From: Flavobacteriaceae bacterium UJ101
Lineage (GTDB): Bacteria; Bacteroidota; Bacteroidia; Flavobacteriales; UJ101
Direction: 5' to 3'
DNA length: 64,000 bases
NCBI GenBank assembly: GCA_001880285.1
Contig: CP016269.1
Location: forward strand, 434,001 to 498,000
Numbering within the stretch: position 1 is the first letter of the stretch; each line of letters starts with the position of its first letter. Below, piece by piece: positions 1-23,004 of the stretch. The notes below the pieces were generated by a model. It made no database searches, was not told the origin of the DNA, and saw nothing but the letters and a program-made list of their open reading frames with translations. Made by a program: the position numbers and the translations under genes.

Positions 1-1999
1 CTACCAAATGAGGTCTCTCATAAAATTGATAATAAGCATCCACGTAGCCAACTGGAATATTCGGTAATGCTTCTTTTACTTTACGAACATAACCCAATAA
101 TTCTTCTTCCGATAATTCTTCACGAAGCAAAACTTCATTTCCTACCACCGCAATGTCTACATATCTTTTTTTAGCCAATTGAATTAACTTACTAATTTCT
201 TTTTCATTTTGAGCTTTATCAGCTCCTATCCAAGCACCTACCATTGTTTTTAAGCGTCTTCCTTTAGCTACTTCTGGAATCAGTTCATTACCATCTGTAC
301 ACGAAAATGATCGGATCCATTTTGTATACGGAGCAATTACGTCCATACGCTGTTGTATTTGCTCTTTTGACAATTGATCTCCTATATTTTGGCCTTCTAA
401 ATAAGGACTAAAACATAAACCATGTAATCCTTTATTTAAAGTTGTAGAGAATATCGTTTTAATCTCTTCTGTAGATTTTGACGAAAAATCTATATCTGTA
501 GAAGTATCGATTGATAGATCGGATGCTAATAACGAAGCTAACTTATCTGTTTGATAATAAGAAGAACTAATCGGTTTTCTCTTACGCCGATCTAATTCCT
601 TTCTAATTTCTCCTGCTCGTTTTTCATCAATATCGTAATTCCACATTATATATATAGCAGCTAAAGTTCCAAGAATAGGAATTATTGTATAAAATACTCT
701 CAAACCTGTAATAGCAAATTCTGTTTGTACTTCTGCATTAGAATCATAACCTACAGCAGCCATTAATAAGCCACTTAAACCTCCAGCAATCGCAGCTCCA
801 AGCTTTACCATCCACCAATAAATAGCTCCAAATATTCCTTCTCTACGCTGATGAGTATTTAATTCATCTAAATCACAAACATCACTCGTCATTGACATCA
901 TTACTGTAAAAAGTCCTCCTATTCCAAATGAAACAAATGGTAATGCAAATAAAAACATATAGGGTTTACCAGGTATAAATAAAAACCAAAATAAAACATA
1001 TCCTATTAATGAAATAGCTTGAGTTATAATAAAAGTTTTCTTTTTCCCTAATTTATTAGCCATATAAGTGACAATAGGAATTACAAGAAATGTTGTAATT
1101 AATGCTCCTACACTTCCATGTAATGTTGGCCAAATTCCTGCTGCTTCCGCACTTCCATTAAACAAATAATGTACAATAATGTAAAAAGTAAATAACATTA
1201 CTAAATTATAAGCATTAAACGTAAAGAAGGTTGAAAAACATAACATCCTAAATTGCTTTATACTAAATGCTATCTTAGCTCCTTCTATAATATCTTTTAA
1301 ACTATTTATTATATTAGTCAAAGAGATATCTGCATAATCTTCTTCATCTAGTGTAGATTTACTTTTTATAAAAATTGCTGGAATAATACCTAATAACCCG
1401 CAAAAAACACCTAACCAAATAGCCATTTCACGAACTGCTGCATCTGGTGCACTAAACCAATTCGGATCATAAATAATAACCCAAAACCATGGTACAATTA
1501 CCCATGCCCACTGTCCAATCCATTGTGAAATTGCCATAATATTGGTACGTTCATGAAAGTCATCACTCATTTCATAGCCCATAGCAACAAATGGAACACC
1601 AAATATGGTAAGCCCTAAATAAAATACAAAAGACCACAACATAAAGTAAGTAAAATTGTAATATAGGTCATTACTCGCATGCAATTGCCACATAAAGATA
1701 TAAGAAATAGCAAGTACAATAGCCCCTATAAAAACATATTGTCTCCGTCTTCCCCATTTGGATTTAGTATTATCCGAAATAAAACCCATTATAGGATCTG
1801 TAATCGAATCAAATAATTTAGGTAATAAATATATAAATATGAGCATCCAAGGTGGAAACCCTAAACCTTCAATCAAAACAACCATAAATACTCCAAGAGC
1901 AGCAGGAAACATTTGATTTGCTAACATTCCTAAACCAAAAGCAACCTTCTGATACATAGGGATTTTTTCTTTTATTTGAGTTACAGCAGTATTTGACAT
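1..1999 (-). CDS. GPH-family sugar transporter fused to a GH17 glucanase domain (partial; C-terminus lies beyond the left edge)
   Basis: One open frame runs without a stop from the ATG at 1999 to base 1. Residues 1-450 look like a 12-helix transporter of the glycoside-pentoside-hexuronide (GPH, MFS_2) type, with the early signature DSITDPIMGFISDNT and SKWGRRR. After the last helix comes a very basic linker (RKELDRRKRK, about residues 457-466), so by the positive-inside rule the C-terminus should be cytosolic. From about residue 520 the frame reads as GH17: GLCFSPYLEGQ, then the acid/base motif VVGNE with Glu at residue 622. The nucleophile Glu would lie off the window. It is the last readable gene of an operon with the GH30 and GH17 genes (gaps 18 and 5 bp). 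Seen: the fusion in one frame. Inferred: import of beta-1,3-gluco-oligosaccharides with cytosolic trimming at the membrane. Confidence 0.85.
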   Translation of the reverse strand, partial: MSNTAVTQIKEKIPMYQKVAFGLGMLANQMFPAALGVFMVVLIEGLGFPPWMLIFIYLLPKLFDSITDPIMGFISDNTKSKWGRRRQYVFIGAIVLAISYIFMWQLHASNDLYYNFTYFMLWSFVFYLGLTIFGVPFVAMGYEMSDDFHERTNIMAISQWIGQWAWVIVPWFWVIIYDPNWFSAPDAAVREMAIWLGVFCGLLGIIPAIFIKSKSTLDEEDYADISLTNIINSLKDIIEGAKIAFSIKQFRMLCFSTFFTFNAYNLVMLFTFYIIVHYLFNGSAEAAGIWPTLHGSVGALITTFLVIPIVTYMANKLGKKKTFIITQAISLIGYVLFWFLFIPGKPYMFLFALPFVSFGIGGLFTVMMSMTSDVCDLDELNTHQRREGIFGAIYWWMVKLGAAIAGGLSGLLMAAVGYDSNAEVQTEFAITGLRVFYTIIPILGTLAAIYIMWNYDIDEKRAGEIRKELDRRKRKPISSSYYQTDKLASLLASDLSIDTSTDIDFSSKSTEEIKTIFSTTLNKGLHGLCFSPYLEGQNIGDQLSKEQIQQRMDVIAPYTKWIRSFSCTDGNELIPEVAKGRRLKTMVGAWIGADKAQNEKEISKLIQLAKKRYVDIAVVGNEVLLREELSEEELLGYVRKVKEALPNIPVGYVDAYYQFYERPHLV

Positions 2000-2017: not shown

Positions 2018-3517
2018 TTAAACATTTTCAATCAATATCGTTTGAATGGCTTCTTTATTTATTGTAATTATCTTACTTTTATTTCCAAAAGAAAGTTTAA
2101 GATTTTTCACTTCTTTAGTCGGGTTAAATAATATTAAAGCTACATTCCCATCTGGATTTTTAGCTGCTGTTGCCATCAAATCTTGATCTTCTAATTCAAA
2201 TCCTATTCGAACCGCTCCTGGACGAATAAATTTGCTAAAATGACTTAGAGTATAATAAAGTGGTGTAAAATACACCTCATCTTGATCTGGATCTACAATT
2301 ACAGGAGCTACGCACCAGTTTTTAAACCAATTGGGTCCTCCTTGTCTATCTAAAACCATATTCCAATCAACCCATCCGTCAACCCAATTGTTGAGACAAC
2401 CTATAATATCTCTGGCATAACGGTAAACAGGAACATATTTTGGATGCCAATGTTTTTGATCTTCTGGAGCCCAATCCCAACCCCAATCGGTTGCTTCTTT
2501 TGACCAATACCAAGCATCATCTCTCCATTTTGGTACTTCTGCATCTACACAAGCTTCGGTTTGAATTAAATATTTATTGGGCGCTTTATTGTGTGCATAT
2601 TGTAACGCTTCTGGAAAATATTCGTAGGTACTTTCATACCAGTGAATGGCTGTTCCATCATAATATTTTGATGAAGCTTCATCTTGATACATCACATCAA
2701 CCCACTCTTTTAAGCCCTCACGGTTTTGATCATATCCCAAAATTTTAACATCACCTTTTCCATCAGCCTCTAATTTTGGCCCCAAATGATTTTGCACAAA
2801 ATTTGTCATCTCTTCTGGAGAATAGTGCATACTTTCCCAGTTATTACCATTTCCATGAGGTTCATTTTCAACCGTAATTCCCCAAATATCAATTCCTTCT
2901 GCTTTATATGCTTCTAAATACTTTGAAAAAAACAAGGCCCAAGTATCATAATATTCAGGTAATAATTTTCCTCCAACCCAATCTTTATTATCTTTCATCC
3001 AAGGTGGTGAAGTCCATGGTGATGATATAATTTTAAATCCATCTTTAGAAACCGTCATGGCTTCTTTTATCATAGGAATAATATCATTTCTATCTTCTTC
3101 TATTGAAAAGTGTTTCAATTCCTTATCATCTGGAACGGGTGCATAGGAATAATTTTTCAAAGAGAAATCACATGAATTAATATGCGTTCGTGTTAAAGAA
3201 TATCGAGCACCTGTTTCACCAAAATAGGCTTCTATAATTTTTTCTCGGTTTTCTTTACCTAAACGATTAACAAGATAAGCTGAAGATTCTGTGAAAGATC
3301 CTCCAAAACCTATGATTGTTTGAAATTCTTTTTCAGGAAGAATTTTTATCTTCGTAGATTCAACATCATCTGAAAATGTTGTCAATTTTGTTAATTTATT
3401 TCCTTCTGCAGAAGTTTCATAAACTTCAACATCTAATAAGGTTTCTTTTTCTTTGTTACAACTCATGGTTATTAAGAATAGAGTAAAAATTAAATAGCAG
3501 TAAGTACGTGATTTCAT
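2018..3517 (-). CDS. GH30 family lipoprotein, probable beta-1,6-glucanase/glucosidase
   Basis: The 499-residue protein starts with a lipoprotein signal (ITMSC, Cys20) followed by NKEKE. The GH30 fold shows in IIGFGGSFTESSAYL near residue 68, the acid/base motif VENEPHG (Glu219) and the nucleophile motif IQTEACVD (Glu321), with a C-terminal beta-domain after about residue 430. Length and motif spacing fit GH30 subfamilies acting on beta-1,6-glucosidic bonds or glucosylceramide. Next to two GH17 domains and GH16 laminarinases, removal of the beta-1,6 side chains of laminarin is the most likely job. It sits 5 bp after the GH17 gene and 18 bp before the transporter fusion, so the three are almost surely co-transcribed. 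Whether it faces the periplasm or the cell surface is not decided by the sequence. Confidence 0.9.
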   Translation of the reverse strand: MKSRTYCYLIFTLFLITMSCNKEKETLLDVEVYETSAEGNKLTKLTTFSDDVESTKIKILPEKEFQTIIGFGGSFTESSAYLVNRLGKENREKIIEAYFGETGARYSLTRTHINSCDFSLKNYSYAPVPDDKELKHFSIEEDRNDIIPMIKEAMTVSKDGFKIISSPWTSPPWMKDNKDWVGGKLLPEYYDTWALFFSKYLEAYKAEGIDIWGITVENEPHGNGNNWESMHYSPEEMTNFVQNHLGPKLEADGKGDVKILGYDQNREGLKEWVDVMYQDEASSKYYDGTAIHWYESTYEYFPEALQYAHNKAPNKYLIQTEACVDAEVPKWRDDAWYWSKEATDWGWDWAPEDQKHWHPKYVPVYRYARDIIGCLNNWVDGWVDWNMVLDRQGGPNWFKNWCVAPVIVDPDQDEVYFTPLYYTLSHFSKFIRPGAVRIGFELEDQDLMATAAKNPDGNVALILFNPTKEVKNLKLSFGNKSKIITINKEAIQTILIENV

Positions 3518-3522
3518 AATTG

Positions 3523-4779
3523 TTATTTTTGAGGTGGTATCAATACATCTATGAGTAATGATTCTTTATCTCCATTATATGTTTTAACTATTGGTTTTCC
3601 ATTTCGTGTTAATCCTTTAAAGACACCTTTATCAACTAATTCCCATAAAGCATATTTAGCTTTTCCATCAAGCGTAAAGAGTCCAAAATGATTTTCAGAA
3701 CCTCCTGGGTTTTTAGCGTCTTTCCATATTTCATCAAATGCTTCAAAATAAAAGCATGCTATATTATTCTTATCCGTCCACTCACGAATGTAGTGGTAAT
3801 ACAATCCCTCTTTATATTCATCGGTTGCTTTAGATCCATTTGCTCCATAAAATCCATTTGAAAAACTCGCCCATCCTGTTTCTCCAATATGAATGGGCTT
3901 TTCAATACCCAAACTTTTAATATACTGAGCTGTTGATTCATATTGCTTTTTAGCATACTCCACTGCTCTTTTCATTGATTGATCAATTTTGTTTATGCTT
4001 GAATGGTTTTTATCCTCTTCAAAAACACCCCAAAATTGTGGATTATAATGCGTATCATGCATAGGATAGGTATGCAAGGATACATAATCAACTGCTTGAA
4101 TTAATTTTTTCAAATCTTCGATATGATACTCTGAATCACCACCACCCCATGAGGCAAAATTATCGGAGCTGGTTATCCAAAGTTCTTTTGGTAATTTATT
4201 TTCTTTCTTTAAATTTTGAAGATATTCTACCCATTTTAAAATTACCCAAGGTTGAACATAATAACTTGTAGCCCATTTTACCATTGCTTCATTTCCTACA
4301 GCTATAATTTTAACAATATCAGGGTATTGATTCGCTAAGCTTACTGCTCTTTCAATCTCCTCTCCATTTTGCTCACTTTCAGCATAATGATCTGGAGGAT
4401 AATTGGTCCAAGCATTTTTACAATCAATCCAAGCCCCCAACATTACATACATTTCAAAGCTTTCATTTTCGCTTTTTAACTCTTTTATGGCTTTTAACAA
4501 ATTGGAAGCCTGATCTAACTGAACATTATAGGTTCTTACTATTTTAATCCCCATTGCATGAAGAATCTTCATATCTTCTTTCAATTCTTCAATAGTAGGT
4601 TGAAAACCACGAGAAATTTTTCGATAACCTCCATATGAAATAGCTAAATAATTAGGGTTTCCTAAAATATCTTCAGCTGTTACATTTATTTTATTCTTCG
4701 TAATAATTTCTTTTTTCTTATTCATATAACAGTTATTTAATAAGGCTGTTGCTATAATCAATTTTATTATTAACTTCAT
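3523..4779 (-). CDS. GH17 family beta-1,3-glucanase, exported
   Basis: A 418-residue protein with a short hydrophobic N-terminus ending LLNNC. That is a poor lipobox (Asn before Cys16), so it may be a lipoprotein or a simple periplasmic protein. The GH17 TIM barrel is complete: AISYGGYRK at residue 47, the acid/base motif VGNE (Glu164) and the nucleophile motif IGETGW (Glu300). GH17 enzymes of Bacteroidota act on beta-1,3-glucan chains, often with exo- or oligosaccharide preference. It is the first gene of a three-gene operon (GH17, GH30, transporter-GH17), 137 bp downstream of the phosphorylase gene. A second GH17 domain is fused to the transporter in the same operon, so the family is present on what are predicted to be both sides of the inner membrane. 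Confidence 0.9.
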   Translation of the reverse strand: MKLIIKLIIATALLNNCYMNKKKEIITKNKINVTAEDILGNPNYLAISYGGYRKISRGFQPTIEELKEDMKILHAMGIKIVRTYNVQLDQASNLLKAIKELKSENESFEMYVMLGAWIDCKNAWTNYPPDHYAESEQNGEEIERAVSLANQYPDIVKIIAVGNEAMVKWATSYYVQPWVILKWVEYLQNLKKENKLPKELWITSSDNFASWGGGDSEYHIEDLKKLIQAVDYVSLHTYPMHDTHYNPQFWGVFEEDKNHSSINKIDQSMKRAVEYAKKQYESTAQYIKSLGIEKPIHIGETGWASFSNGFYGANGSKATDEYKEGLYYHYIREWTDKNNIACFYFEAFDEIWKDAKNPGGSENHFGLFTLDGKAKYALWELVDKGVFKGLTRNGKPIVKTYNGDKESLLIDVLIPPQK

Positions 4780-4916: not shown

Positions 4917-7900
4917 TTATTTCAAATGTGTTTCTTTTATATTCACAACAATCTCAATAATTTTTCCTGTTCGATCAAAGAGTTCTTTACTCATTTTATT
5001 ATCTAAACTTAATTGATCAAATTCTATTTTCTCTCCTCCGTTTAGAAGAATTTGCACACGATCATCACTTGAAATTTTATATACAATTGGAACTTGACAA
5101 TATGTAAATCCAAGTGATTTTTCATTAAGGTTTATTGTTTTTTGTTTTCCATTTACCTCAACATAATTAAAAACACTTGATTCTGTTAAAAATTCATCTT
5201 TTCTTAATAAACAAGGGTTGAAATATAACTTACCTTGTTTTACAAAAACACCCAGTTCCCCAAATCTAGAAATCACATCTTCTTTTACCTGACCTGTCAT
5301 TCCAGGTTGTTGTGCTCCTTTTGTAGCTGGTGTATGGGAATATGGATCAGTAGGAAAAGCTCCATACAATGTAGGTGACTTATGAACGCCTATTCCTTCA
5401 TTAATCTCATAATAGTGTTCTAATAATCTACCCATAACCTCTGCTGATGCTTCTTTTTCAATAGCATCTAAACAACATTCTTGCACTGCTAACTGTAATT
5501 TAGAAACCATGTGCCAGTAAATACTTCCTAATCCTTCATATCCAAAGAAAGTCCCAGAACGACCCGTAAAGGCTTTATGATTGAATACTTCTTCAAAAAT
5601 AGTTAATATTAGATCTTGATCTTTTGTTACCGATTCTGCATAATCTGAATTGGATAATTGACCTAATACCTCTTTTACATTATTAGAATTTTTAAAGTTT
5701 CCATTAAAATGATAGGTTCCTTTTACACTTTTTTCAACAATTTGGGTGTTACCTTCTTCTATCATTTTTTTAAGTAACGTTGATTTTTCTATCGATGCCT
5801 TTGGTATATTATTTCGATCAAAGAATCCATTAATATTCTTATTAGGGTATAATATGTAACTATATTGATCATCACGGAAAAGTGCACTATCTTTCATCCC
5901 ATCTAATACAGCTAAGGCTTCTTCTGGCTTTAAATAACCTGAACTCAAGACAGCTACTTGTCCTTCTAACATTTCATCTAAATAAGAAATAGAAACTTCT
6001 TTTTCATTTTCTACTGTCATTAAGTTATAAGCATGGAACATATTATCTTCGCGTTGATTTGCTTTAATGGAATGATCGATAAAGGCTAAACCTAAATCTA
6101 CAAATCGACGTAAACCATTGAATGAAATCGTGCGTTTCTTTCCCCAAAAGGCTTGTTCGTATACATGTTCTCTGAATTCATTCGCTACTTCTCCTAAATT
6201 ATCTAAGACCATTTTACGATCTTCGTCATTAATTTTTCCTTCTAATAGATGTTGATTATCCTCTAATATTTGACGTACTTGTTTATAAAAATCAACTACT
6301 TCATTCGAAACCTTCACACCTTCTAAATCCGTTTTGCTTAATACTTCTTTAAAGAATTGCAAAAAACGACGTAAATAATACAATGTAACCATTGAAACCC
6401 CGTTTCCTACTAAAGCATTGTTCGCATCATTCCATTCAGGACGTTGCGTATTCATCCAAATTCCTCCTTCAGGAATGAAATTAGACATCTTAGCTAATGT
6501 GGTTGCTAATATTTTTTCAATAAAGTTTACTTGAACCAATTCATCATTCTCATCTCTCAGTAAAGCTCCATCTGCTCCTATTTTACTACGTAATGCTCGA
6601 ATTTTTTCATCTAAACCTAAATCAAAATCTATCGTATCTTTTGGATTGTTAACAATATCTTGGTACGGCTTAATTTTATAAGGAACATTAGCGTAAACAA
6701 AGAATTCTTTATCAAAATATTCTTCTAATTTACCTGGTTTATGTTTTTCTAAAAATTCTAAAAATTTAAGTAAATAAATAATTTGATGATCGCCCCAATA
6801 CCCAATATATGACCAAGGATCATCAGGTTCAATAGTTTCCCAATCAAAACCATCTTTGGTCACACGATATGGGTTGTAACCATCAAAAGTAGAAGCGTTT
6901 AAAAATTTACACATCATACTTTCCATAAACTCTGGAAATGAATGAGCTAAAGCCTCCCAATTTTGGAAGATATCACGCCAATTCCCTTCATAATCTAGAA
7001 TTTTAGAGCCATCTATTTCACTTCGAGTATTAATCGAAAATTTGTTCCAAGGTCTACTAGGATCTCCATGTCTTCGACTAAAGCGTAGTGGAAGGTATTC
7101 CATAGAAAGTCTTGAAAAGTTTGCATCTTCATGTTCGTATGCTAATTCTTTTAATTGTACCAATGTAAACGCTTCTGGTAATTTCTCTAGTTCGGTCTGA
7201 ACTTTTTGATAAACGGTTACATTCGCTTTTCTAAGATATTCACTAAAATCCCACTTTTCAATTTGGTAATTATAATCAAATATTCCTCCTCGCATAATAT
7301 TAAACAAGGTATTTGAAAAATGGCGTGTATCACGTAAATCATCTGCAGTAGACTGTAATGCATCAGCTGAAGCATTTAACGTAATTAAACGTTGTGTTCC
7401 ATCTTCAATCTTCTGATTTACGGTATCGTATAATGTTTTATCATTTTTAATTCTTTCAGTCAATGCTGCTACATCTGAATGATCTTTATTAACATCCGCT
7501 ACAAACATCCATTCTTTTTCAGCATTTGACTTAAGATTTATTTTCTCATGAACAAAATAAGCTCCTTTTTCAGCTTTTATATCCGTTTCTTCTTGTACTT
7601 TTTCTCCTTCTCTATAACGGCCTAATTGTCTTGATGACAGAAGATAAGTTGGGTTTTCTAAGCCTAATGACCAAACTACATTGGCTTTCAAAGCTTCACT
7701 TGGTTCTGCTTTATCTACAATAATAGCACTTAAAGCAAAAACACCTAATCCGGAAGACAGATCTAATTCGCTTCTTTTATAGGCATCTACTAAATTACTT
7801 GCTCGATTCTGTAAATCACTACCTACACCACTTGGTATTATATTTTGAATACCATCCAATACTAAAATTTCAACCTCTTGTTGATTATGATTTATTAACT

Positions 7901-8369
7901 TTGATTTTTTAACAAATCCAAAAGTATTGGTAGAGTTCCATTGATACGTAAAAGTAAGCTCTAAACTATGATTAATTTCTTCAAAAAGAATTTTATTCCC
8001 GTATGCATTTTTATAAAGGTTTCGGGTAATCTTATATTTTCCTGAGAATCTTTCAGAAAAAGGTTCCCAACTATATTTCTTACCTTCTTTTTCTACCCAA
8101 AAAATCGATTTACTTCCTGTAATATCGGCTGACTCTGTAATTTTATCATCTGTATAATAAGGGAATAATGCATATTCTGCATTTTTCCTCCCAGCGGTTA
8201 GTCCTCCATTACTAGAAATAAACATCCAATGATTCGAATCACTTACTATGCTCATAAAGAATGGTCGCATAGCATCACTGTTTGCGATTTTATAATAGGT
8301 TTCGTTTTCTTTTATAACCTTTTCTAATCTCTCACCTTTTGTTTTTTCTTCTTTTAATTGATCAATCAT
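4917..8369 (-). CDS. Cytosolic beta-1,3-oligoglucan phosphorylase, GH149-like
   Basis: The 1150-residue protein has no signal peptide or membrane segment, so it should be cytosolic. It resembles the GH94/GH149 phosphorylases: an N-terminal beta-sandwich (about 1-320), a linker, an (alpha/alpha)6 barrel with RPWNKFSIN, GNWRDIFQNWEAL and the probable general acid in RPEWNDANNAL (Asp648), and a C-terminal beta-domain. Disaccharide-specific GH94 enzymes are usually about 800-900 residues. The extra length and the laminarin context favour GH149, a family founded on Euglena and bacterial beta-1,3-glucan phosphorylases. The reaction would release glucose-1-phosphate from imported beta-1,3-gluco-oligosaccharides, sparing ATP. 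It appears to be a single-gene unit, with a hairpin upstream and 137 bp to the next gene. Alternatives are a GH94 or an unclassified phosphorylase. Confidence 0.78.
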   Translation of the reverse strand: MIDQLKEEKTKGERLEKVIKENETYYKIANSDAMRPFFMSIVSDSNHWMFISSNGGLTAGRKNAEYALFPYYTDDKITESADITGSKSIFWVEKEGKKYSWEPFSERFSGKYKITRNLYKNAYGNKILFEEINHSLELTFTYQWNSTNTFGFVKKSKLINHNQQEVEILVLDGIQNIIPSGVGSDLQNRASNLVDAYKRSELDLSSGLGVFALSAIIVDKAEPSEALKANVVWSLGLENPTYLLSSRQLGRYREGEKVQEETDIKAEKGAYFVHEKINLKSNAEKEWMFVADVNKDHSDVAALTERIKNDKTLYDTVNQKIEDGTQRLITLNASADALQSTADDLRDTRHFSNTLFNIMRGGIFDYNYQIEKWDFSEYLRKANVTVYQKVQTELEKLPEAFTLVQLKELAYEHEDANFSRLSMEYLPLRFSRRHGDPSRPWNKFSINTRSEIDGSKILDYEGNWRDIFQNWEALAHSFPEFMESMMCKFLNASTFDGYNPYRVTKDGFDWETIEPDDPWSYIGYWGDHQIIYLLKFLEFLEKHKPGKLEEYFDKEFFVYANVPYKIKPYQDIVNNPKDTIDFDLGLDEKIRALRSKIGADGALLRDENDELVQVNFIEKILATTLAKMSNFIPEGGIWMNTQRPEWNDANNALVGNGVSMVTLYYLRRFLQFFKEVLSKTDLEGVKVSNEVVDFYKQVRQILEDNQHLLEGKINDEDRKMVLDNLGEVANEFREHVYEQAFWGKKRTISFNGLRRFVDLGLAFIDHSIKANQREDNMFHAYNLMTVENEKEVSISYLDEMLEGQVAVLSSGYLKPEEALAVLDGMKDSALFRDDQYSYILYPNKNINGFFDRNNIPKASIEKSTLLKKMIEEGNTQIVEKSVKGTYHFNGNFKNSNNVKEVLGQLSNSDYAESVTKDQDLILTIFEEVFNHKAFTGRSGTFFGYEGLGSIYWHMVSKLQLAVQECCLDAIEKEASAEVMGRLLEHYYEINEGIGVHKSPTLYGAFPTDPYSHTPATKGAQQPGMTGQVKEDVISRFGELGVFVKQGKLYFNPCLLRKDEFLTESSVFNYVEVNGKQKTINLNEKSLGFTYCQVPIVYKISSDDRVQILLNGGEKIEFDQLSLDNKMSKELFDRTGKIIEIVVNIKETHLK

Positions 8370-11182: not shown

Positions 11183-12004
11183 TTATTGGTAAACTCGAAC
11201 ATAATCTATATACATCGTTTGTGGAAATACGGTATTTGCATCAGGAGATCCCACAAAAGATCCTCCTACTGCAAGGTTTATAATCATATAAAATGGATGA
11301 TCAAAAACCCACTCTCCTGTAACATCATCTGGCGTAATTTGGTTGTATAAAATATTATCAACATAATAATTGATATAACTAGGTCCCCATTCTACTCCAA
11401 AAACATGAAAATCTGTATCAAAACGATCATTCGGAATCGTAAATTCTTTTGTTATGGCTGTTGAAGAAGAATATCCTGGTCCGTGAACACTCCCTGCGAT
11501 ATCAGTTGGGTTTTGCCCTCTATATTCCATAATATCGATTTCTCCACATTGTGGCCAACCTACTTCATTAATATTGTTTCCTAATAACCAGAATGCAGGC
11601 CACATACCTTGCCCATATGGTAATTTCATTCTCGCTTCGAAACGACCATAAGCTTGTTCAAAAAGTCCTTCTGTTTTAATTCTTGCTGAAGTATAAGAAG
11701 AACCTTGATACGATTCTTGAATAGCTGTGATTTTCAACATTCCATCTTCTACTACAATATTTTCAGAACGATCTGTATAATATTGTAATTCACTATTCCC
11801 CCAACCGTTTTCACCTGTTCCAATATCATATGTCCAGATGGAACTATCGGGTGCTCCATCAATATTAAATTCATCTTGTAATACTAATGTATCTAGTTTC
11901 GTAATACTTTGATCTTCTGAGCAACTTAACGCTAAAAAGAATATCGCTATTAGCATTACATTACTCAGTTGTATTTTTTTATTTTGTTTTATCTTCTGTC
12001 TCAT
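11183..12004 (-). CDS. GH16 laminarinase (endo-beta-1,3-glucanase), lipoprotein
   Basis: A compact 273-residue GH16 enzyme with a lipoprotein signal (LALSC, Cys28, then SEDQ). The catalytic motif GEIDIME gives nucleophile Glu155, helper Asp157 and acid/base Glu160. The extra Met between Asp and Glu (the beta-bulge form) is typical of laminarinases. Other family marks are WTYDIGTGENGWGNSELQYY, WPAFWLLG and the C-terminal MYIDYVRVYQ. It cuts internal beta-1,3 bonds of laminarin, probably at the cell surface. It lies 36 bp after the CBM-like lipoprotein gene and 19 bp before the large binding lipoprotein. A second, larger GH16 with accessory modules is encoded at 25695-27356. Confidence 0.93.
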   Translation of the reverse strand: MRQKIKQNKKIQLSNVMLIAIFFLALSCSEDQSITKLDTLVLQDEFNIDGAPDSSIWTYDIGTGENGWGNSELQYYTDRSENIVVEDGMLKITAIQESYQGSSYTSARIKTEGLFEQAYGRFEARMKLPYGQGMWPAFWLLGNNINEVGWPQCGEIDIMEYRGQNPTDIAGSVHGPGYSSSTAITKEFTIPNDRFDTDFHVFGVEWGPSYINYYVDNILYNQITPDDVTGEWVFDHPFYMIINLAVGGSFVGSPDANTVFPQTMYIDYVRVYQ

Positions 12005-13448: not shown

Positions 13449-16400
13449 TTATTTTCCAATGTTAATTTTTATATACGTTCTTATCTCCCATTCGTTTCCA
13501 TCATCATAACCTTCTGTCGCTATACATTGACCTGTAGCATCAGTAACAGGACAGTATCGTGGCGAATACTGATCTAGTGTACGCCAAGTTCCTCTAATTC
13601 CAATTTTAGTATCAGGTAAAATAAACCAACTTGGTTTTCCAACTGAAGTTGAAAGATCTGCCATTAACTGAACTGGGAATGTTTGGTTAAAATCTCTATG
13701 GTAATCATATGGTCCCCAATCATTAATTTTAACAGCAGAAATTAATTTAATTTTTCTATAAATCATACGAAGATCTAACCCATAACGATTGATAATCCTT
13801 TGACTATCACCATTAGCTTGTGCTTCTCCTCCATAAAGATTCGCTATAATTCCAAAATTTGGATTTAGTTTTGAAACAATACGTGCATAACCTTCCCATA
13901 AATCAGCAGGGCCTGCAGCTCCTGGGAATGCAAAAGTAGTTCTTCCATCAGGTAAGATTCCTATTGCAGCATCCATTGAAGTTGGCATATGACGATAAAT
14001 TGCCCCTACACTCGCAGCAAACTTTGCATCTTCTATTTCATCACTATTCCATTCATGCATCCATGTTCCTGGAGTTGGGTCATAGGTAAGTAATAGCTCA
14101 CTTCCATACGTTTCTCTATTTTGTCTAACAGAAAATGGATCATCTAAAATATTTCTTAATCTTCCTGGAGCTTGAACATCTCCTGGCATTGGGTCAACAA
14201 TAGGTTTTTGCCATAAAAAGTTAGGTGCAATTTCAAAATTACCTATTTTATAAGCAAAACCTCCTAAAACATTTTGTTGGTTACCACTACCACTATCTTT
14301 TAATCTCCATCCCGTGTAAGTTTTTGTATAATCAGTACCACCATTCGCAACTAATCCCATAATAGCTGATTGTAAATACCAACTAATTGGACCTTTCGAA
14401 TAGGTTAATTTTAGTTTACCACCCCAGTTATCACTAGCTTTTACCTGATCATCATAGATGGTATAATTCCCTGGCTCTCCTCTAGCAATTTGGAATGTTC
14501 TACCATTTAAAGGTTGTCCACCCCAAATACCTCCTACTTGAACTCCTAAATCACCAATTTTAGTTTTAGCACTTAATGTTACTCTTCTTGTCTGAGGTTG
14601 TGGTACAGCAATAGAACTTACCGCAGGTTCAGCATTATCAATATCTTCATGATAAATAGCTGCAACATCAAAACGCCCTATTTGTTTTCTATATTTTAAT
14701 AAGAATGCTGGATTGGCTCCCCACCATAATTGACGTCCAAAAGCAGCTTTAAAACCTTCTAAAGCTTGTTTACCATCTACTTCAAACCCTAATGTTTCTC
14801 CATTATAAATATCTAAATTAGGACCATAATTTGCCTCTGGATACAATCCAAAAAAGTCTCCTTCGTATCCCCAATGATAATGTCCTGTTCTATAAAAACC
14901 ATTCAAATCAAACAATTTATGATTCCATTCAAAACTAGCATTATAAACTTTTAATCGATCTATATCATCTAAAGTAACCGTTCCATCATCACTCGTTACA
15001 AATTCACGTGAACGACCTCTATTTTCATAAAAAATTTCATTAATAGGATTTGTTGCAACATTACCTAATATATTGAAATTAATATTCGCCCTAACATTTG
15101 ATGTTGGATTAGCTTCAATCCCTACATAATAGGATTCCATATGATCAAACCCTCTTTTATTAGGATAAGTATTACCATTTATATCATCTCCCTCTTCAAC
15201 AGGTGTTGAAATTAAATCTCCACCTGTATTAAAGGTTTCAAACTCTGCTCTAAAATTACTAATACGTATTCTCTTCGATAATTCAGAAACCAAGGAAGCT
15301 TTATCTCCTCTGGCTTTTAAAACAGCACCCATTACTTCAACCCCATCAAAATATTGATCTACAGAAGCTAATGTTGCCCCTTTATTATATGGATTTAATC
15401 TGTGAACTTCTTGTAATGCATAATAAGCAGCTCTAGGATACAGTTGATATAATCCTTTTGCATTTGTTTGACCTTTTGCACAAATTCCAAACCATTCTTC
15501 ATTCATATTATTCTGACCGTCTAAAAAGTCTTTTTGATACCCTCCATTGGACCATGATGCATTATTATCATGTTTATCAAGGTTCTTTGTTTGTCCATAT
15601 TTCCACCATCCATCACTAAATTGAAATGTAAAACCTCCAATAGAATTTCCTGCTTTACCTAAACCTGCAGCATTTTCATAAATTTCTTTCCAATTACCTA
15701 CTAAATAATATGCCTGAGCTTGCTGATCTTCTTCATTAGTTATCGCATTAAATGCATCGGCACCAAACTCGGTAAACATAATGGGTTTATTCAATTCATC
15801 TTTAATTTTCTGAAAAGCATCTCCAAAAGATATTCCACGGTATACATTTGTTCCATAGATATCCACATCTTTACATTCTTCTTTAATAATATTAAGAAAA
15901 AGCAAATCTCCATTACATATTGCAACTGGATGAGAACTATCAATTGCTTTCATAGCAACAGCAGCATCATTCATTAACTTATACATGGGTCTACCTCTAA
16001 CTTCTCCTATATGCTGCTTTTTTTCTTCTTCATCAGGGAAATCTTCTGTTTCTGCTCCTGCCCAGAAAAGCCCATAGTTATTTTCATTTCCTAATAAAAA
16101 CATCAACAAACCAGGAGTATCTTTATACTTTTCAGACATTTCTTTTACTTCTTTAAGAAGTAATTTCTGAGCCCTAGGATCACTATATTCAGTATTTGCT
16201 ACCCACGCACCGTCTATAGTTAAACCATAACGACCAAAAGAATGATTCAACATAGTATAAATACCATAATTCTCATAAATATATTGAATCCATTTTGGTG
16301 GCACACCCGTATATTGACGAATTACATTTACTCCCATATTCTTAAGTAAAGCCATTTCTTCGTCTAACGCTGCCTTTATTAAATCATCTGGTTGTTTCCA

Positions 16401-16586
16401 TAAACTATAGGTATAATTGGTTCCTATTGGAAAATAATCCCAGTTCATTCCATTTATCATGAAATTTTCTCCATTGACTACCAACTTCATTCCACTGTCA
16501 TCTTTAACAACTGAAACCTTATCTGCTTGAGCAAACATTGTTGTCATGGTTAGTAGTAAAAATGTTAATTTAAAAACGTTCTTCAT
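13449..16586 (-). CDS. Clan GH-A (GH2-like) hydrolase domain fused to a predicted outer-membrane beta-barrel
   Basis: 1045 residues with a Sec signal peptide (cleavage after about TMFAQ). Residues 30-420 form a TIM barrel of clan GH-A type, like the catalytic domain of GH2: NGMNWDYFPIG, NVIRQYTG, a probable acid/base in LLGNENN (Glu168) and a probable nucleophile in MFTEFGAD (Glu273). From about 430 to the end the sequence is a series of amphipathic strands with aromatic girdles and Gly-rich turns, ending EWEIRTYIKINIGK. This looks like a porin-type barrel of about 600 residues. An N-terminal domain before such a barrel would normally lie in the periplasm. First gene of a four-gene operon with two binding lipoproteins and GH16. 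The exact GH family and substrate are not recognisable by eye; a beta-glucan is inferred from context. Confidence 0.75.
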   Translation of the reverse strand: MKNVFKLTFLLLTMTTMFAQADKVSVVKDDSGMKLVVNGENFMINGMNWDYFPIGTNYTYSLWKQPDDLIKAALDEEMALLKNMGVNVIRQYTGVPPKWIQYIYENYGIYTMLNHSFGRYGLTIDGAWVANTEYSDPRAQKLLLKEVKEMSEKYKDTPGLLMFLLGNENNYGLFWAGAETEDFPDEEEKKQHIGEVRGRPMYKLMNDAAVAMKAIDSSHPVAICNGDLLFLNIIKEECKDVDIYGTNVYRGISFGDAFQKIKDELNKPIMFTEFGADAFNAITNEEDQQAQAYYLVGNWKEIYENAAGLGKAGNSIGGFTFQFSDGWWKYGQTKNLDKHDNNASWSNGGYQKDFLDGQNNMNEEWFGICAKGQTNAKGLYQLYPRAAYYALQEVHRLNPYNKGATLASVDQYFDGVEVMGAVLKARGDKASLVSELSKRIRISNFRAEFETFNTGGDLISTPVEEGDDINGNTYPNKRGFDHMESYYVGIEANPTSNVRANINFNILGNVATNPINEIFYENRGRSREFVTSDDGTVTLDDIDRLKVYNASFEWNHKLFDLNGFYRTGHYHWGYEGDFFGLYPEANYGPNLDIYNGETLGFEVDGKQALEGFKAAFGRQLWWGANPAFLLKYRKQIGRFDVAAIYHEDIDNAEPAVSSIAVPQPQTRRVTLSAKTKIGDLGVQVGGIWGGQPLNGRTFQIARGEPGNYTIYDDQVKASDNWGGKLKLTYSKGPISWYLQSAIMGLVANGGTDYTKTYTGWRLKDSGSGNQQNVLGGFAYKIGNFEIAPNFLWQKPIVDPMPGDVQAPGRLRNILDDPFSVRQNRETYGSELLLTYDPTPGTWMHEWNSDEIEDAKFAASVGAIYRHMPTSMDAAIGILPDGRTTFAFPGAAGPADLWEGYARIVSKLNPNFGIIANLYGGEAQANGDSQRIINRYGLDLRMIYRKIKLISAVKINDWGPYDYHRDFNQTFPVQLMADLSTSVGKPSWFILPDTKIGIRGTWRTLDQYSPRYCPVTDATGQCIATEGYDDGNEWEIRTYIKINIGK

Positions 16587-17121: not shown

Positions 17122-19941
17122 TTACAGTTCAAGAATATAATTTGTTAAACTCACTTCATGAGATAAATTCATTTTTTTACGTAATCGGTAACGTTTCACT
17201 TCAACACTTCTTGTAGAAATATTTAACAAAGGTGCTATTTCTTTAGATGAAAGGTTTAGACGTAAATAGGCACATAAACGTAAATCATTAGGAGTTAAAT
17301 TGGGGTGACTAGCTTTAATTGTAGACAAAAAATGTTTATCTGCATTATTAAAAGCACTTTCAAACAACTTCCAATCATCAGAATTATTAAGATTTTCATC
17401 AATAATTTTAATAACATCTTGTAAATCCTCATCTGATTTTCGACTGTTTATTTGTGATTTTATACGATTTAAAAATTCATTCTTTTTAATTATATTCATA
17501 GTTGAAGTAGCTAACTCCTTATTTTTACTTGCAATATCCTGTTGAAGCTTCTCATTTGCAAACCTCATTGCTTGCTCTTTATTTTCTAATTCTTTTAATT
17601 CAATTTCATTTTGTGCTTTTTCAAGTAATTCTTTACGATAACTCATATAATATCTTTTATACAATGAATGAACTAGCAAAAGAAAGCCGATAAAAAGTAA
17701 ACCATAAAAAACAATAGCCATATTCGACCAATACCAAGGACGTAAAACGGTAAATTTATAAACAGCTTCATTACTTGAAACCTGATTACCCATTCTTGCT
17801 TTTACTTTAAAAACATAGTCTCCATAAGGTAAATTTTTAAAATTCTCAGAAGATTTAGTTTCCCAAGCACTCCAACCATCATAAAACCCTTCTAACTTAA
17901 ATATGTACTCTGGAATTATATACTTATCAAATTCTGGAACATTGAATGTTATTTGAACATTATTTTCATTATGCTTAATCTCTCCTATTTGATTGCTTTC
18001 TAAAAAATTCACTATATTTTTATCAAAAGATGAGCTCTTAACAGAATGAATGTAAACCTTAAAATTTCTTTGTTTTTTGATGGATTCATTATATTGATTT
18101 AAATCTAAAACAAAATACCCTAATTCATTTCCTAACAAATATTTTTCATTTCCTAACGGAATAATATTTTCATATCCATTCTTCGTATTTCTTAAGTTAC
18201 TTATTAAAGGGATCGAGTTAACTTCTGGTTTATCACTAATTTTACCTGGTAAGGTATACTTTATCTCATCTTTATTAAAAGACCAAAGTCTTCCTGTTTT
18301 TTCATCAACAATCAATTTACCTGATGTATAGTTATCTTCAGTAAACAAATTATCAAAAACAGAATCTTTACTAAACTTTCCTTTTATCTCATCAAATCGA
18401 AAAACTCCATCTTTAAAAGCAAATAAAATTTGATTTTGATATTTCACCAATCCTGAATTAAAACCGTCAATACCTTCTAATTCTTGATTAATCGATAATG
18501 CTTTCTTAAAATCATGATCTACCTCAACTTCATAAACCCCCTTATATTCATGACTTACAAAAATAGTTTCTCCTAAAATTTCAAAAAACCGAGAAGAAAT
18601 ATCAAATCCTTCAATTTTATTCCTAAACTTCCATGAATTATTACTTTTCTCCAAAATATTTAATCCATCATAATTCCCTTGAACCAATAAATTGGAATGA
18701 TTAGGTACTTTTTTAATATTCCAAGTTCCTTCAATATCTACTATTTTTTCTGCTTTGTTTTGATCAACCATAAAAGTTCCTTTGTCATGACCACATAACA
18801 ATTGATCATCTATTACTTTTAAAAACCAAACCTGCCCTCCTGTATTTGTTATAAACTTGAATTTTTCATCAGAATCAATTTTTTTATAAAACAACCCTTG
18901 ATTTGTTCCTAAATACAGATGTCCTTTATATAACGCTGAAGCGTAGACACTCCCAACGTCTCCTGTAATATCATTATAGAATCTAAAATAAGATGACTCA
19001 TTTATACAATCAATTCCATTATCAAGACCTAGCCAAATATTTTTTTCTTTATCCTCAAATACATTAAGAACTGTATTATTACTTAAACCGTTAGTTTTAT
19101 TAATTTGGTAACCTAATGTTCCTGTGGCATTTACTTTTACTAAACCATTTGAAATCGTTCCTAGCAAAAAACTTCCATCATTGAGTCGAATACTACTGTA
19201 CACAGACATTTTAGATACTACTTCATTAGCAGGAACTGCCCATTTTTTAAATAACTCATTCTCGAATAGATAAAAACCCCCATCAATAAATTGAACTATA
19301 ATTGCTTGTCCAAAACTGTATAGGTTTACAATTTTTTCTTCTTTAACTAAATCATTCTCAATAAGAAGTTCGCCAACACCTTTTTTGATTTTAAAAACTC
19401 CTACCCCCATTTCTTGATAATAAATATTACCATCTAACTCATACATCTTACTGATATTAGTTTTCGAATCAATTATCTTGTATTGATCATTATCCGTATT
19501 ATAAATATAAATTCTATTAAGTGATTGAAATAAAATCCAATTATCAAGACTTAAAATACTCCAAAACTGTTCATCATCTACTAATTCAATTTTTAGTTTT
19601 TCGGTAAGAGAAGTATAAGTCAATTTATTATATTGATCGTAGACCCAATACCCAAAATCCATATAAGATCCTGTATAAATTTTATCATCCACTACTTTAA
19701 CCGAACGCATAATCGTTTCATTGACAGTTGGGTATAATCCCCAAGTACTTCCATTAAATTCTAATAGTCCTTTATTATTTGCTATATAAATATTCTTATT
19801 TGAAGATTGCGATATTGACCAATTTTGACTTTCTCCTCCATACACTTCAGGATTATATATTTCAATAGGTGGTAATTCCTGTGCTTTAATGAAACATACA
19901 ATTAAGGGAACAATGTAATATAATAAATGCTTTAAATTCAT
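17122..19941 (-). CDS. Membrane-spanning sensor-regulator: beta-propeller, Y_Y_Y domain, TM helix, LuxR-type HTH
   Basis: 939 residues. A signal peptide (1-21) exports a long periplasmic part made of propeller repeats of the two-component regulator propeller type (for example ENIWLGLDNGIDCI), followed by a triple-tyrosine-like beta-sandwich (about 640-730, YIFKLEGFYDGWSAW). One transmembrane helix lies at about 734-760, then a coiled coil (765-815). The C-terminal HTH of the LuxR/GerE type (about 875-935) contains LTPNDLRLCAYLRLNLSSKEIA and SVEVKRYRLRKKM. There is no histidine kinase domain, so a sugar sensed in the periplasm probably acts directly on the cytosolic DNA-binding domain, as in SusR-like regulators. 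It is paralogous to the next gene upstream and ends 128 bp before the operator cluster. Confidence 0.85.
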   Translation of the reverse strand: MNLKHLLYYIVPLIVCFIKAQELPPIEIYNPEVYGGESQNWSISQSSNKNIYIANNKGLLEFNGSTWGLYPTVNETIMRSVKVVDDKIYTGSYMDFGYWVYDQYNKLTYTSLTEKLKIELVDDEQFWSILSLDNWILFQSLNRIYIYNTDNDQYKIIDSKTNISKMYELDGNIYYQEMGVGVFKIKKGVGELLIENDLVKEEKIVNLYSFGQAIIVQFIDGGFYLFENELFKKWAVPANEVVSKMSVYSSIRLNDGSFLLGTISNGLVKVNATGTLGYQINKTNGLSNNTVLNVFEDKEKNIWLGLDNGIDCINESSYFRFYNDITGDVGSVYASALYKGHLYLGTNQGLFYKKIDSDEKFKFITNTGGQVWFLKVIDDQLLCGHDKGTFMVDQNKAEKIVDIEGTWNIKKVPNHSNLLVQGNYDGLNILEKSNNSWKFRNKIEGFDISSRFFEILGETIFVSHEYKGVYEVEVDHDFKKALSINQELEGIDGFNSGLVKYQNQILFAFKDGVFRFDEIKGKFSKDSVFDNLFTEDNYTSGKLIVDEKTGRLWSFNKDEIKYTLPGKISDKPEVNSIPLISNLRNTKNGYENIIPLGNEKYLLGNELGYFVLDLNQYNESIKKQRNFKVYIHSVKSSSFDKNIVNFLESNQIGEIKHNENNVQITFNVPEFDKYIIPEYIFKLEGFYDGWSAWETKSSENFKNLPYGDYVFKVKARMGNQVSSNEAVYKFTVLRPWYWSNMAIVFYGLLFIGFLLLVHSLYKRYYMSYRKELLEKAQNEIELKELENKEQAMRFANEKLQQDIASKNKELATSTMNIIKKNEFLNRIKSQINSRKSDEDLQDVIKIIDENLNNSDDWKLFESAFNNADKHFLSTIKASHPNLTPNDLRLCAYLRLNLSSKEIAPLLNISTRSVEVKRYRLRKKMNLSHEVSLTNYILEL

Positions 19942-20069: not shown

Positions 20070-22841
20070 TTAATTAAATTTCCTTAAATATTCTGATAAA
20101 TTATCCTCTCTATCCAAGTGCATTTTTTTTCGTAATCTTGATCTACTAACATCTACACTACTCGAGTTTATACCTAACAGAGAAGCTATTTCTTTTGAAG
20201 TTAAATTCATTTTAAGAAAAGCACATGTACGCAAATCTTTAGTGGTTAAACTAGGATGTTTTTCATGTAATTTCTTAAAAAAAGAATCATGTGTTTTATC
20301 AAAATTCATTTCAAAAATCTTATCATCATCCCTAGATAAATAATATTCAATCGTAGATATCATTTCTTTATAATAACGCTTTGGTAATTTTTGAGATGAA
20401 GCTTCGTTTATTTCAATAAATTTTTTCTTAATTTTTTTCACCACACTATTTTTATTTAAATTAACTTGTGCAGCCTTAGCTAATTCACGATTTTTACTAT
20501 TTAATTCTATTTTTAATTTTTCATTTTCTAATCCTATAATTTCTTTTTGCTGCTGCAACCTATTTTCTTTAAATTTCTGTTCTTGTCTTATTAATTCTCT
20601 ATTTCTTTTTAATATTAAAAGGCGCTCTTGTTTACGCATTCTACTTTGATGAATTCTAATAAAAGTACCTATAATAATCAAAACAACTAAAAAAAAGCTT
20701 AATATCGAATACCATCTAAAATACCAAGGCTTATCAATTTTAAATTGAATAGATGATTCCTTTGACACTATTTTTTTATAAAGTGCTCTTAATCTCAATT
20801 GATGATCTCCATATCCAAGTTCATTTAAAACTAAACTCGATCCAGAAAAAGGAGCTGACCAATCCCTTTCGTCTATCTTATATTGGAATTTAAAATCATT
20901 ACCATAAAAGGGAAGTGTAAAATATACTTTTAAAGAAGTATTTGTTGGCTCGATAGCTTTTATATTCTCTATTTTTTTTATAGATATCAAACTTTCTATT
21001 TTAATAATTACTGGGTTCAATTTAATAAACATCTCTTTATTAAATTTATTACTATTTTTGTAGAGAGCAAAGCCATTATAAATAGGGAAAAACATAAAAT
21101 CGGCAACGGGTGTAATATTATCAATATTAGTCAAAACCTGATTATCTAAAAATTCAATTTTTAGCGTATCTTGATTATCTATTAAGTCTATCCCTTGATC
21201 AACCAATAACTTATATCTAGCATTTTTATAATCTATAACAATTGGGGCATCTGTTTTTTCAAATTTTTCATTTTTTATATTATACTTGAAATTCTGACCA
21301 TATTCATTTCTCAAAGACAATTCTTCATTATTATAAAAAAATTGTAATGAGCTTCCTTCAAACTCTTCTATAGAATACCAATCACGATCAATAATCTCAT
21401 CATATGCTTCATTTAATTTTAATTTAAAAATCCCTTTAGTTTTTATTCCAACCCAAATATTATCGTTAATATCTATAAATAAATTTCGAGAAGATTCTTC
21501 AAATCCAGCTAATTTTATTTTTTCCGACCACTTTCCATTATTTTTTTCATACACTACAATTCCATTATAATTCCCAGAAATTGCAAAATTTTTATTATTT
21601 AAAGGCAGGAATTTCCATGCACCCAATTCTTTTGATATTAAATTCAATGCTCCTCCTTCTATAACAAAAGTTCCTTTATCATGTCCTACAAAAACAGTCT
21701 CATCTATTTGTTTCAAACTCCAAACTTGACCATCCGACATAGGAATTTGCATTCCAAAATCATAAATTGATTTTAATGTATCCCATCTAGCTTTATATAA
21801 CCCCTGATTCGTCCCCACATATAGATCATCTTTATACTTCAAAGCGGTATAAGCTGTACCAAATAATCCAAAATAATCATAAAAATATGTATTATTTGAA
21901 TTTACCTTAATATAACTAATACCATAATCTAAACCCAGCCAAATATTATCTTCAATATCATTTTCAATAGTTAAAACTGTATTATTTAATAATCCATTCT
22001 TTTTTGAAAAATGTTGTACGATTTCTAACTTTTCATTAATTATATATAATCCATTCTTTACAGTACCAAAAGCCCAATTACCACCTACTTTACTAACTGA
22101 AAAAATATTTTGTAAACTGATCGTTTTAAAGTTATTATGAAGACAAGGTTTTAATATTCCTTCTTTCAATTCTAATATCTCACTTTCATAATTTACAAAG
22201 TAATATTTACCTTTGATTAAAAACCCATCTTTTATATCATGCGTATATTTATTTTTGGTAATAGCTATTAAAGATTCATTTTCCAATTTAAATAATCCAT
22301 TATTTCGATCAGAAATATATATTTCATCATTTAATTTAAAGGCCCAATTAAATCGATTCCTTGCAGGAATTTTCACCGAAATATGACCATTAAATATATA
22401 TAAATTTTTAAATGATTGAAAAACAATTTTATTACCATTTTTAAATATTCTCCAAAATTCTTCTACATCTTCCCCTTCCTCTTTATCAGTAAAATACAAT
22501 GAATTATAACTCCAAGTATCATTTTCTTTAATAAACAATCCAAAATCACCATCTAGCCCAACAAAAACACTATCATTATTTACAGCATAAACACTTCTAA
22601 TAATTGATTTTTTAGTTGCTATCTCTTGAAAATCAACTCCATTATATTCTAATAATTTTTTACCATTTGCAAAATATAAAAAGCCATTGGCTCCTTGCGA
22701 AATATCCCAAATCTTACTCTCTCCTTGATAATCTACAATATCAAAGTTTTTCATATATGGGACCCCTTTGTGTACCAAATTTTGAGCATAAAGGTTTATT
22801 GAAAAAAGAAAATAACTAAATAATATTAACCTACAAATCAT
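20070..22841 (-). CDS. Second membrane-spanning sensor-regulator, paralog of the neighbouring one
   Basis: I chose the ATG at 22841, which gives a normal signal peptide (MICRLILFSYFLFSINLYAQ) and 923 residues. An upstream ATG at 22898 adds 19 residues before it. The architecture is the same as its neighbour: periplasmic propeller with NIWLGLDYGISYI, a Y_Y_Y-like domain (FQYKIDERDWSAPF), a TM helix at about 705-730, a coiled coil rich in Glu/Lys/Gln, and a LuxR-type HTH (LTTKDLRTCAFLKMNLTSKEIA). The two are clearly diverged, so they may sense different ligands, for instance beta-1,3- versus beta-1,6-linked oligosaccharides. The gene lies 163 bp after the PKD lipoprotein gene. The gap of 128 bp to the next regulator gene allows a separate promoter. 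Confidence 0.85.
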   Translation of the reverse strand: MICRLILFSYFLFSINLYAQNLVHKGVPYMKNFDIVDYQGESKIWDISQGANGFLYFANGKKLLEYNGVDFQEIATKKSIIRSVYAVNNDSVFVGLDGDFGLFIKENDTWSYNSLYFTDKEEGEDVEEFWRIFKNGNKIVFQSFKNLYIFNGHISVKIPARNRFNWAFKLNDEIYISDRNNGLFKLENESLIAITKNKYTHDIKDGFLIKGKYYFVNYESEILELKEGILKPCLHNNFKTISLQNIFSVSKVGGNWAFGTVKNGLYIINEKLEIVQHFSKKNGLLNNTVLTIENDIEDNIWLGLDYGISYIKVNSNNTYFYDYFGLFGTAYTALKYKDDLYVGTNQGLYKARWDTLKSIYDFGMQIPMSDGQVWSLKQIDETVFVGHDKGTFVIEGGALNLISKELGAWKFLPLNNKNFAISGNYNGIVVYEKNNGKWSEKIKLAGFEESSRNLFIDINDNIWVGIKTKGIFKLKLNEAYDEIIDRDWYSIEEFEGSSLQFFYNNEELSLRNEYGQNFKYNIKNEKFEKTDAPIVIDYKNARYKLLVDQGIDLIDNQDTLKIEFLDNQVLTNIDNITPVADFMFFPIYNGFALYKNSNKFNKEMFIKLNPVIIKIESLISIKKIENIKAIEPTNTSLKVYFTLPFYGNDFKFQYKIDERDWSAPFSGSSLVLNELGYGDHQLRLRALYKKIVSKESSIQFKIDKPWYFRWYSILSFFLVVLIIIGTFIRIHQSRMRKQERLLILKRNRELIRQEQKFKENRLQQQKEIIGLENEKLKIELNSKNRELAKAAQVNLNKNSVVKKIKKKFIEINEASSQKLPKRYYKEMISTIEYYLSRDDDKIFEMNFDKTHDSFFKKLHEKHPSLTTKDLRTCAFLKMNLTSKEIASLLGINSSSVDVSRSRLRKKMHLDREDNLSEYLRKFN

Positions 22842-23004
22842 ATTAATTACATAATCATATACATTATTAAGATTTTTAAATATACACATATTAAACAAAA
22901 TAGAAATAGTATATAAAATTGTACTTAAATGAAGTTACTCTTTATCTTTTTTCTAATAAATCTAAAAGTACTATAATACTTATCAAATAATAAAAAGTTC
23001 ATAT

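Follow-up and report, generated by a model that had tools for sequence, protein, structure and literature searches.

In Flavobacteriaceae bacterium UJ101, a sugar importer and a GH17 domain share one gene within a laminarin locus. On which side of the inner membrane does this GH17 lie, and what does it do there? The answer determines which sugar crosses the membrane, an oligosaccharide or glucose, and also how much energy the GH149 phosphorylase of the locus can save. Marine carbon is stored to a large extent as laminarin, and loci of this type rank with the most highly expressed during algal blooms. We analyzed a stretch of 64,000 nucleotides (contig CP016269.1, positions 434,001 to 498,000, called the window below) and compared the fusion gene with homologous loci.

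An importer and a GH17 domain in one reading frame

The window contains the 5' 666 codons of the fusion gene (2-1999, minus strand). Extending the sequence leftwards, as the initial annotation had proposed, recovered the whole ORF (G000:C1:433648-435999 = L007:9648-11999, minus strand), which has 783 codons and runs from ATG to TAA without a frameshift; the TAA lies 352 bases past the window edge (window coordinate -352). The intact ORF rules out a frameshift or stop past the edge, and the nucleophile Glu, whose loss was the other outcome that the initial annotation had anticipated as fatal, is present as E712 (ITETGWP; codon outside the window at about -136 to -134, minus strand). The acid/base Glu is E622 (VGNEV), with its codon inside the window at 134-136 (minus strand). 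All 150 domains compared, 57 fused and 93 stand-alone, have Glu at both positions.

Residues 1-475 (575-1999, minus strand) are the transporter part, of the GPH/MelB type and predicted to be N-in/C-in. The GPH-type 12-helix assignment made initially was borne out by a Pfam MFS_2 match (PF13347, residues 21-459, 1e-61), by 12 hydrophobic segments, and by alignment with MelB (4m64). After the transporter's own charged tail comes a linker (about residues 476-496; 512-574, minus strand), delimited by aligning the junction across 55 fusions and by the pLDDT of a predicted model, which is under 50 at residues 475-484; the linker is short and disordered. The GH17 domain starts at about residue 497 and is cut by the window edge (1-511, minus strand). 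When isolated, this C-terminal domain passes the curated PF00332 GH17 cut-off (41.2 versus 28.2 bits), in agreement with the GH17 domain first noted in this frame, and its part of the predicted model resembles the Rhizomucor miehei GH17 4wtr (TMt 0.79). The model of the full protein has a pLDDT of 82 and a pTM of 0.59; the predicted folds of the two domains are credible, their relative placement is not. Promoter-like sites were no more frequent than in shuffles.

Upstream of the fusion gene are genes for a GH30, an exported GH17, a GH149, a PKD/CBM protein, and a GH16, followed at a greater distance by a SusD gene and regulators. The GH30 has a lipoprotein-like N-terminus (2018-3517, minus strand; PF02055, 2.3e-78) and is a homologue of FbGH30, an exo-beta-1,6-glucosidase (PMC6246565). 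Beyond it lies the separate exported GH17 that had been located two genes upstream (3523-4779, minus strand; PF00332, 33.1 bits); it is lipoprotein-like and stands at the FbGH17A/MlGH17A position, by which it is predicted to be an endo-beta-1,3-glucanase (PMC13188888). The cytosolic phosphorylase noted at the same locus is a GH149 beta-1,3-glucan phosphorylase without a signal peptide (4917-8369, minus strand; NF058639, 1811.6 bits versus a cut-off of 1150; PDB 6hq6 match, E = 0). An exported GH16 laminarinase belongs to the same gene run (11183-12004, minus strand; PF00722, 2.2e-27). The next gene downstream of the fusion, outside the window, starts after 32 bases and encodes a 310-aa GH17 that stands alone, lacks a signal peptide (L007:8683-9615, minus strand), and is 54% identical to the fused domain. 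Homologous loci keep the gene order GH149 - exported GH17 - GH30 - MFS~GH17 - GH17.

The wider region contains further genes, all on the minus strand. A 1045-aa protein (13449-16586) matches a GH2-type TIM barrel at its N-terminus, and its long C-terminal part has no Pfam match and resembles a beta-rich outer-membrane region. Two large regulators adjoin each other (17122-19941 and 20070-22898); one has propeller, Y_Y_Y, and LuxR-type DNA-binding domains, the other only a weak C-terminal match to sigma-70 region 4. A second MFS transporter (Sugar_tr, PF00083; 23897-25522) in the same gene run, near the GH16 and SusD genes, may import glucose for the locus.

The initial annotation had suggested searching genomes for the spread of the fusion. 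A scan of named genomes, a sample biased to the closest relatives, returned 80 loci, of which 55 were fused. Together with the window's genome and one further genome (G162), the scan loci gave 54 distinct complete fusions; a one-frame fusion in so many distinct genes is neither chance nor assembly error. A stand-alone GH17B then follows on the same strand in 51 of the 54, mostly within 90 bases, and the other three consist of two that stop at a contig edge and one real exception (L116). The less biased sample comprised 394 Bacteroidota genomes, with fused ORFs and MFS parts checked. A GH17B-type enzyme is present in 35 of these genomes and the fused form in 15 of the 35; 14 genomes have both fused and stand-alone forms, one (G333) has the fused form only, and 20 have the stand-alone form only.

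Five apparent fusions from an order-wide scan (G262, G144, G267, G192, and a '1045 aa' frame of G285) did not hold up, either when their DNA was read or because of internal stops; in G267, G144, and G285, the checked DNA has a stop separating the MFS and GH17 genes. Between these genes, G285 has a gene for a 211-aa protein with an N-terminal hydrophobic segment (L041:6099-6734, minus strand). Viral contigs yielded 20 pattern matches and no relative of the fusion.

The side of the membrane

The GH17 domain had been placed inside the cell on account of a strongly basic linker. A charged tail is indeed present, but its acidic residues almost match the basic ones in number (on average 6.9 Asp+Glu and 7.9 Lys+Arg), and unfused homologues end with a similar one, for example the MFS protein of L041 with ...YDLSEERAIEIKKQLEERRGVI before the stop. 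By this comparison, what was called a 'basic linker' is simply how the transporter normally ends, and the topology argument built on it is therefore weak alone.

The location is better judged from the whole protein. A published sentence on hydrolysis coupled to 'product uptake' (PMC6246565) reads more easily with the GH17 outside and glucose as cargo: a periplasmic GH17 would free glucose, and the MFS part would import it. Such an arrangement requires the helix count to be odd. The average over 52 fusions shows 12 hydrophobic segments, ending with one at residues 435-453, and none follows residue 453 in the linker or the GH17 part, which rules out an extra helix in the linker. With the N-terminus inside, the mean content of Lys+Arg in these 52 fusions is 32.5 in even loops and 4.1 in odd loops, and the charge direction is N-in/C-in in every one of them, strongly against a periplasmic GH17. 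GPH relatives of known structure align over their full length, and transporter residues 13-455 match residues 3-432 of MelB (4m64) end to end. Both termini of MelB are cytosolic. In addition, a signal peptide is missing from the stand-alone paralogue that occupies the same place in the operon. From the 12 helices, the Lys+Arg pattern, the end-to-end MelB alignment, the lack of an extra helix, and this related GH17, we infer with strong support that the fused GH17 is on the cytosolic side of the inner membrane, and a periplasmic GH17 coupled to glucose import appears highly improbable. Hence, the interior location given by the initial annotation stands on grounds other than the linker, and the topology prediction that it called for puts the C-terminus in the cytosol and not in the periplasm. 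The 'product uptake' sentence either leaves the membrane side open or suggests the outside; our data favour the inside.

The transporter part shares its fold and 12 helices with the GPH-type symporters MelB (PDB 4m64, 7l16) and MFSD2A (8d2t); the predicted model resembles MelB and MFSD2A with a TMt of 0.75-0.81. The GPH cation symporter model TIGR00792 aligns over its whole length (1-437 of 437) with 175.8 bits, below its curated cut-off of 231.35 (about 231). The cation-site Asp pair of MelB, D55/D59, is conserved as D64/D68 of the fusion and is invariant in 52 fusions. In contrast, MelB D19 and D124 are replaced by Q29 and G134, suggesting a sugar other than that of MelB. Unlike the fusion, MelB has no enzyme domain.

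Fused and stand-alone GH17 domains

We built a tree of 57 fused and 93 stand-alone GH17 domains, 150 in all, in which one branch with a support of 99 parts the two sets. The sole 'stand-alone' row among the fused domains is a contig-end fragment that begins inside an MFS; counting it as fused, this clade is never unfused in 57 rows. A slower tree, rooted with a third GH17 type as outgroup (outgroup branch 4.27), again recovered the stand-alone domains as a group (100/98); it did not resolve the branching among the fused domains, so we make no claim on which GH17 state came first. Fused and stand-alone GH17s are thus, judging from the tree, most likely paralogues and not orthologues, and most fusion-bearing loci hold both. 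The third GH17 type, of about 310 aa, lacks a signal peptide, is 26-30% identical to GH17B, and occurs beside GH17B in many loci (for example L047:4773-5711, minus; L050:6209-7147, minus; L086:7772-8704, plus; L136:9203-10162, plus); it is absent from the window's locus.

The two groups differ at a position of known interest. MlGH17B of Muricauda lutaonensis is a stand-alone cytoplasmic beta-1,3-glucanosyltransglycosylase, a type whose transferase activity forms beta-1,6 links, and its Tyr136, at the aglycone site, is a proposed requirement for transglycosylation (PMC11005184). By a column-based alignment count, Tyr occupies this position in none of the 57 fused domains (Leu in 37, Met in 9, His in 8, and Gln in 3) and in 85 of the 93 stand-alone domains. 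Among the three aglycone residues of MlGH17B, Leu625 replaces the Tyr in the UJ101 fusion (codon at 125-127, minus strand), and Trp680 and Glu681 are kept; the 310-aa neighbour retains the Tyr (Tyr143). In the 394-genome sample, Tyr is missing in 13 of 15 fusions, the exceptions being G333 and G630. This loss is a clade-level correlation, perhaps a single event, and no proof of a functional switch.

The fused GH17 could nevertheless be mainly a transglycosylase like MlGH17B and remodel imported oligosaccharides instead of trimming them. It is 53-54% identical to MlGH17B-like enzymes, the equivalents of Trp191 and Glu192 are invariant in fused and stand-alone domains alike, and undetected transferase activity is allowed for in PMC11005184. 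We consider this unlikely given the missing Tyr, the glucose reported as the product of FbGH17B, the fused enzyme of Formosa (PMC6246565), and the separate stand-alone enzyme that is almost always next door and nearly always keeps the Tyr. FbGH17B and MlGH17B have been treated as counterparts at corresponding positions (PMC13188888); paralogy would explain their different activities, where we assigned the two enzymes to the fused and stand-alone groups by architecture and Tyr, not by tree placement.

The transporter parts have a different history. In the MFS tree, transporters from fused and unfused loci are intermingled. Psychroflexus and Mesohalobacter have fusions that combine transporters from a distant MFS clade with GH17 domains within the fused group; by the two trees, the MFS part was probably swapped in these genera. 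In G333 (L131:5381-7843, minus strand), the GH17 joined to an MFS is of the stand-alone type, with the start region MSFREERF and the Tyr kept and 71% identity to a stand-alone enzyme of a related genome. A single origin of G333 and the main fused group gave a log-likelihood lower by 25 (p-AU 0.078); the AU test is suggestive and not decisive, and G333 is likelier to be an independent second fusion by these sequences.

These observations bear on whether the fusion matters at all. It might be a translational or co-localisation convenience, with both domains acting as if separate and without coupling. Many loci have the MFS and GH17B genes as separate neighbours a few bases apart, so the split form works too, and the short, disordered linker would fit such an arrangement. 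Yet the fused clade is never found unfused, the fusion was retained even where the MFS part was swapped, and it probably arose separately in G333, all of which make mere convenience a doubtful explanation. Read in the same way, the retention of the tether through transporter exchange and the probable renewed fusion in a separate lineage may point to selection on the tether. We tentatively suggest, as a possibility that we rate below even, that the two cytosolic paralogues split the work between a tethered exo-hydrolase and a free, lengthening transglycosylase, that the loss of Tyr turned the tethered one from transglycosylase into exo-hydrolase, and that the tether was selected. If so, the tethered GH17 would pull oligosaccharides inward on arrival.

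Proposed role and comparison with known systems

Overall, the fusion probably combines an importer with a tethered cytosolic exo-hydrolase of the FbGH17B kind that feeds phosphorolysis by GH149; import-coupled trimming, as proposed initially, is a plausible role. The periplasmic GH30 and GH17 (2018-4779) would debranch and cut laminarin to short beta-1,3-gluco-oligosaccharides, which the cation-coupled GPH transporter may carry over the inner membrane. At the cytosolic face, the tethered GH17 would remove glucose from the oligosaccharides on arrival, GH149 would phosphorolyse the remainder, and the free cytosolic GH17, of the transglycosylase type, would lengthen or disproportionate the remaining oligosaccharides. 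The tether might hold the inner-side concentration low and so favour uptake. Behind this scheme, the intact fusion, the genes of the conserved locus, the topology signals, and the catalytic and aglycone residues come from sequence, and the enzyme activities from papers on homologues. Trimming by hydrolysis would waste energy that GH149 could save, which counts against this explanation, as do the 'product uptake' sentence and the TIGR00792 score below its cut-off.

The initial annotation regarded the fusion as unusual and the GH17s of such loci as normally exported. Neither view was supported. Fusions in the same type of locus were published in 2018 (PMC6246565) and 2023 (PMC10108472), so the architecture is not novel, and GH17s without signal peptides are a standard component of laminarin loci (PMC5827456, PMC11005184). 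The fusion is real, its main points were read correctly at the outset, and it belongs to a kind that is published and widespread. Modest additions, which we did not find in the papers available to us, are the paralogy, the pattern at the Tyr position, and the transporter exchange.

MlGH17B belongs to the same GH17 subgroup as the fused domain, has the same operon position after an MFS gene, and lacks a signal peptide; it resembles the 310-aa neighbour type, which keeps the Tyr, whereas the fused domain does not. In the parts of the 2023 study of bloom metagenomes available to us (PMC10108472), most of the expressed variant 1 laminarin PULs hold at least one GH17-MFS fusion, with the architecture and locus type seen here, and such fusions extend to Gammaproteobacteria; an analysis of their topology, paralogy, or residues was not found in those parts. 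The nearest known system is FbGH17B (FORMB_24740) of Formosa sp. Hel1_33_131, described by Unfried et al. in 2018 as an MFS and a GH17 in one gene of the same kind of laminarin locus, an architecture 'common among marine Flavobacteriia', and as an exo-beta-1,3-glucosidase that yields glucose in vitro (PMC6246565). As in UJ101, a single ORF encodes a 12-helix MFS followed by GH17, and the locus contains GH149, an exported GH17, and GH30. The organism differs, as does the residue at the position equivalent to Tyr136, which is Met in FbGH17B and Leu in UJ101, and the fusion of a Formosa MAG (L053) is 71% identical to that of UJ101 in the GH17 domain.
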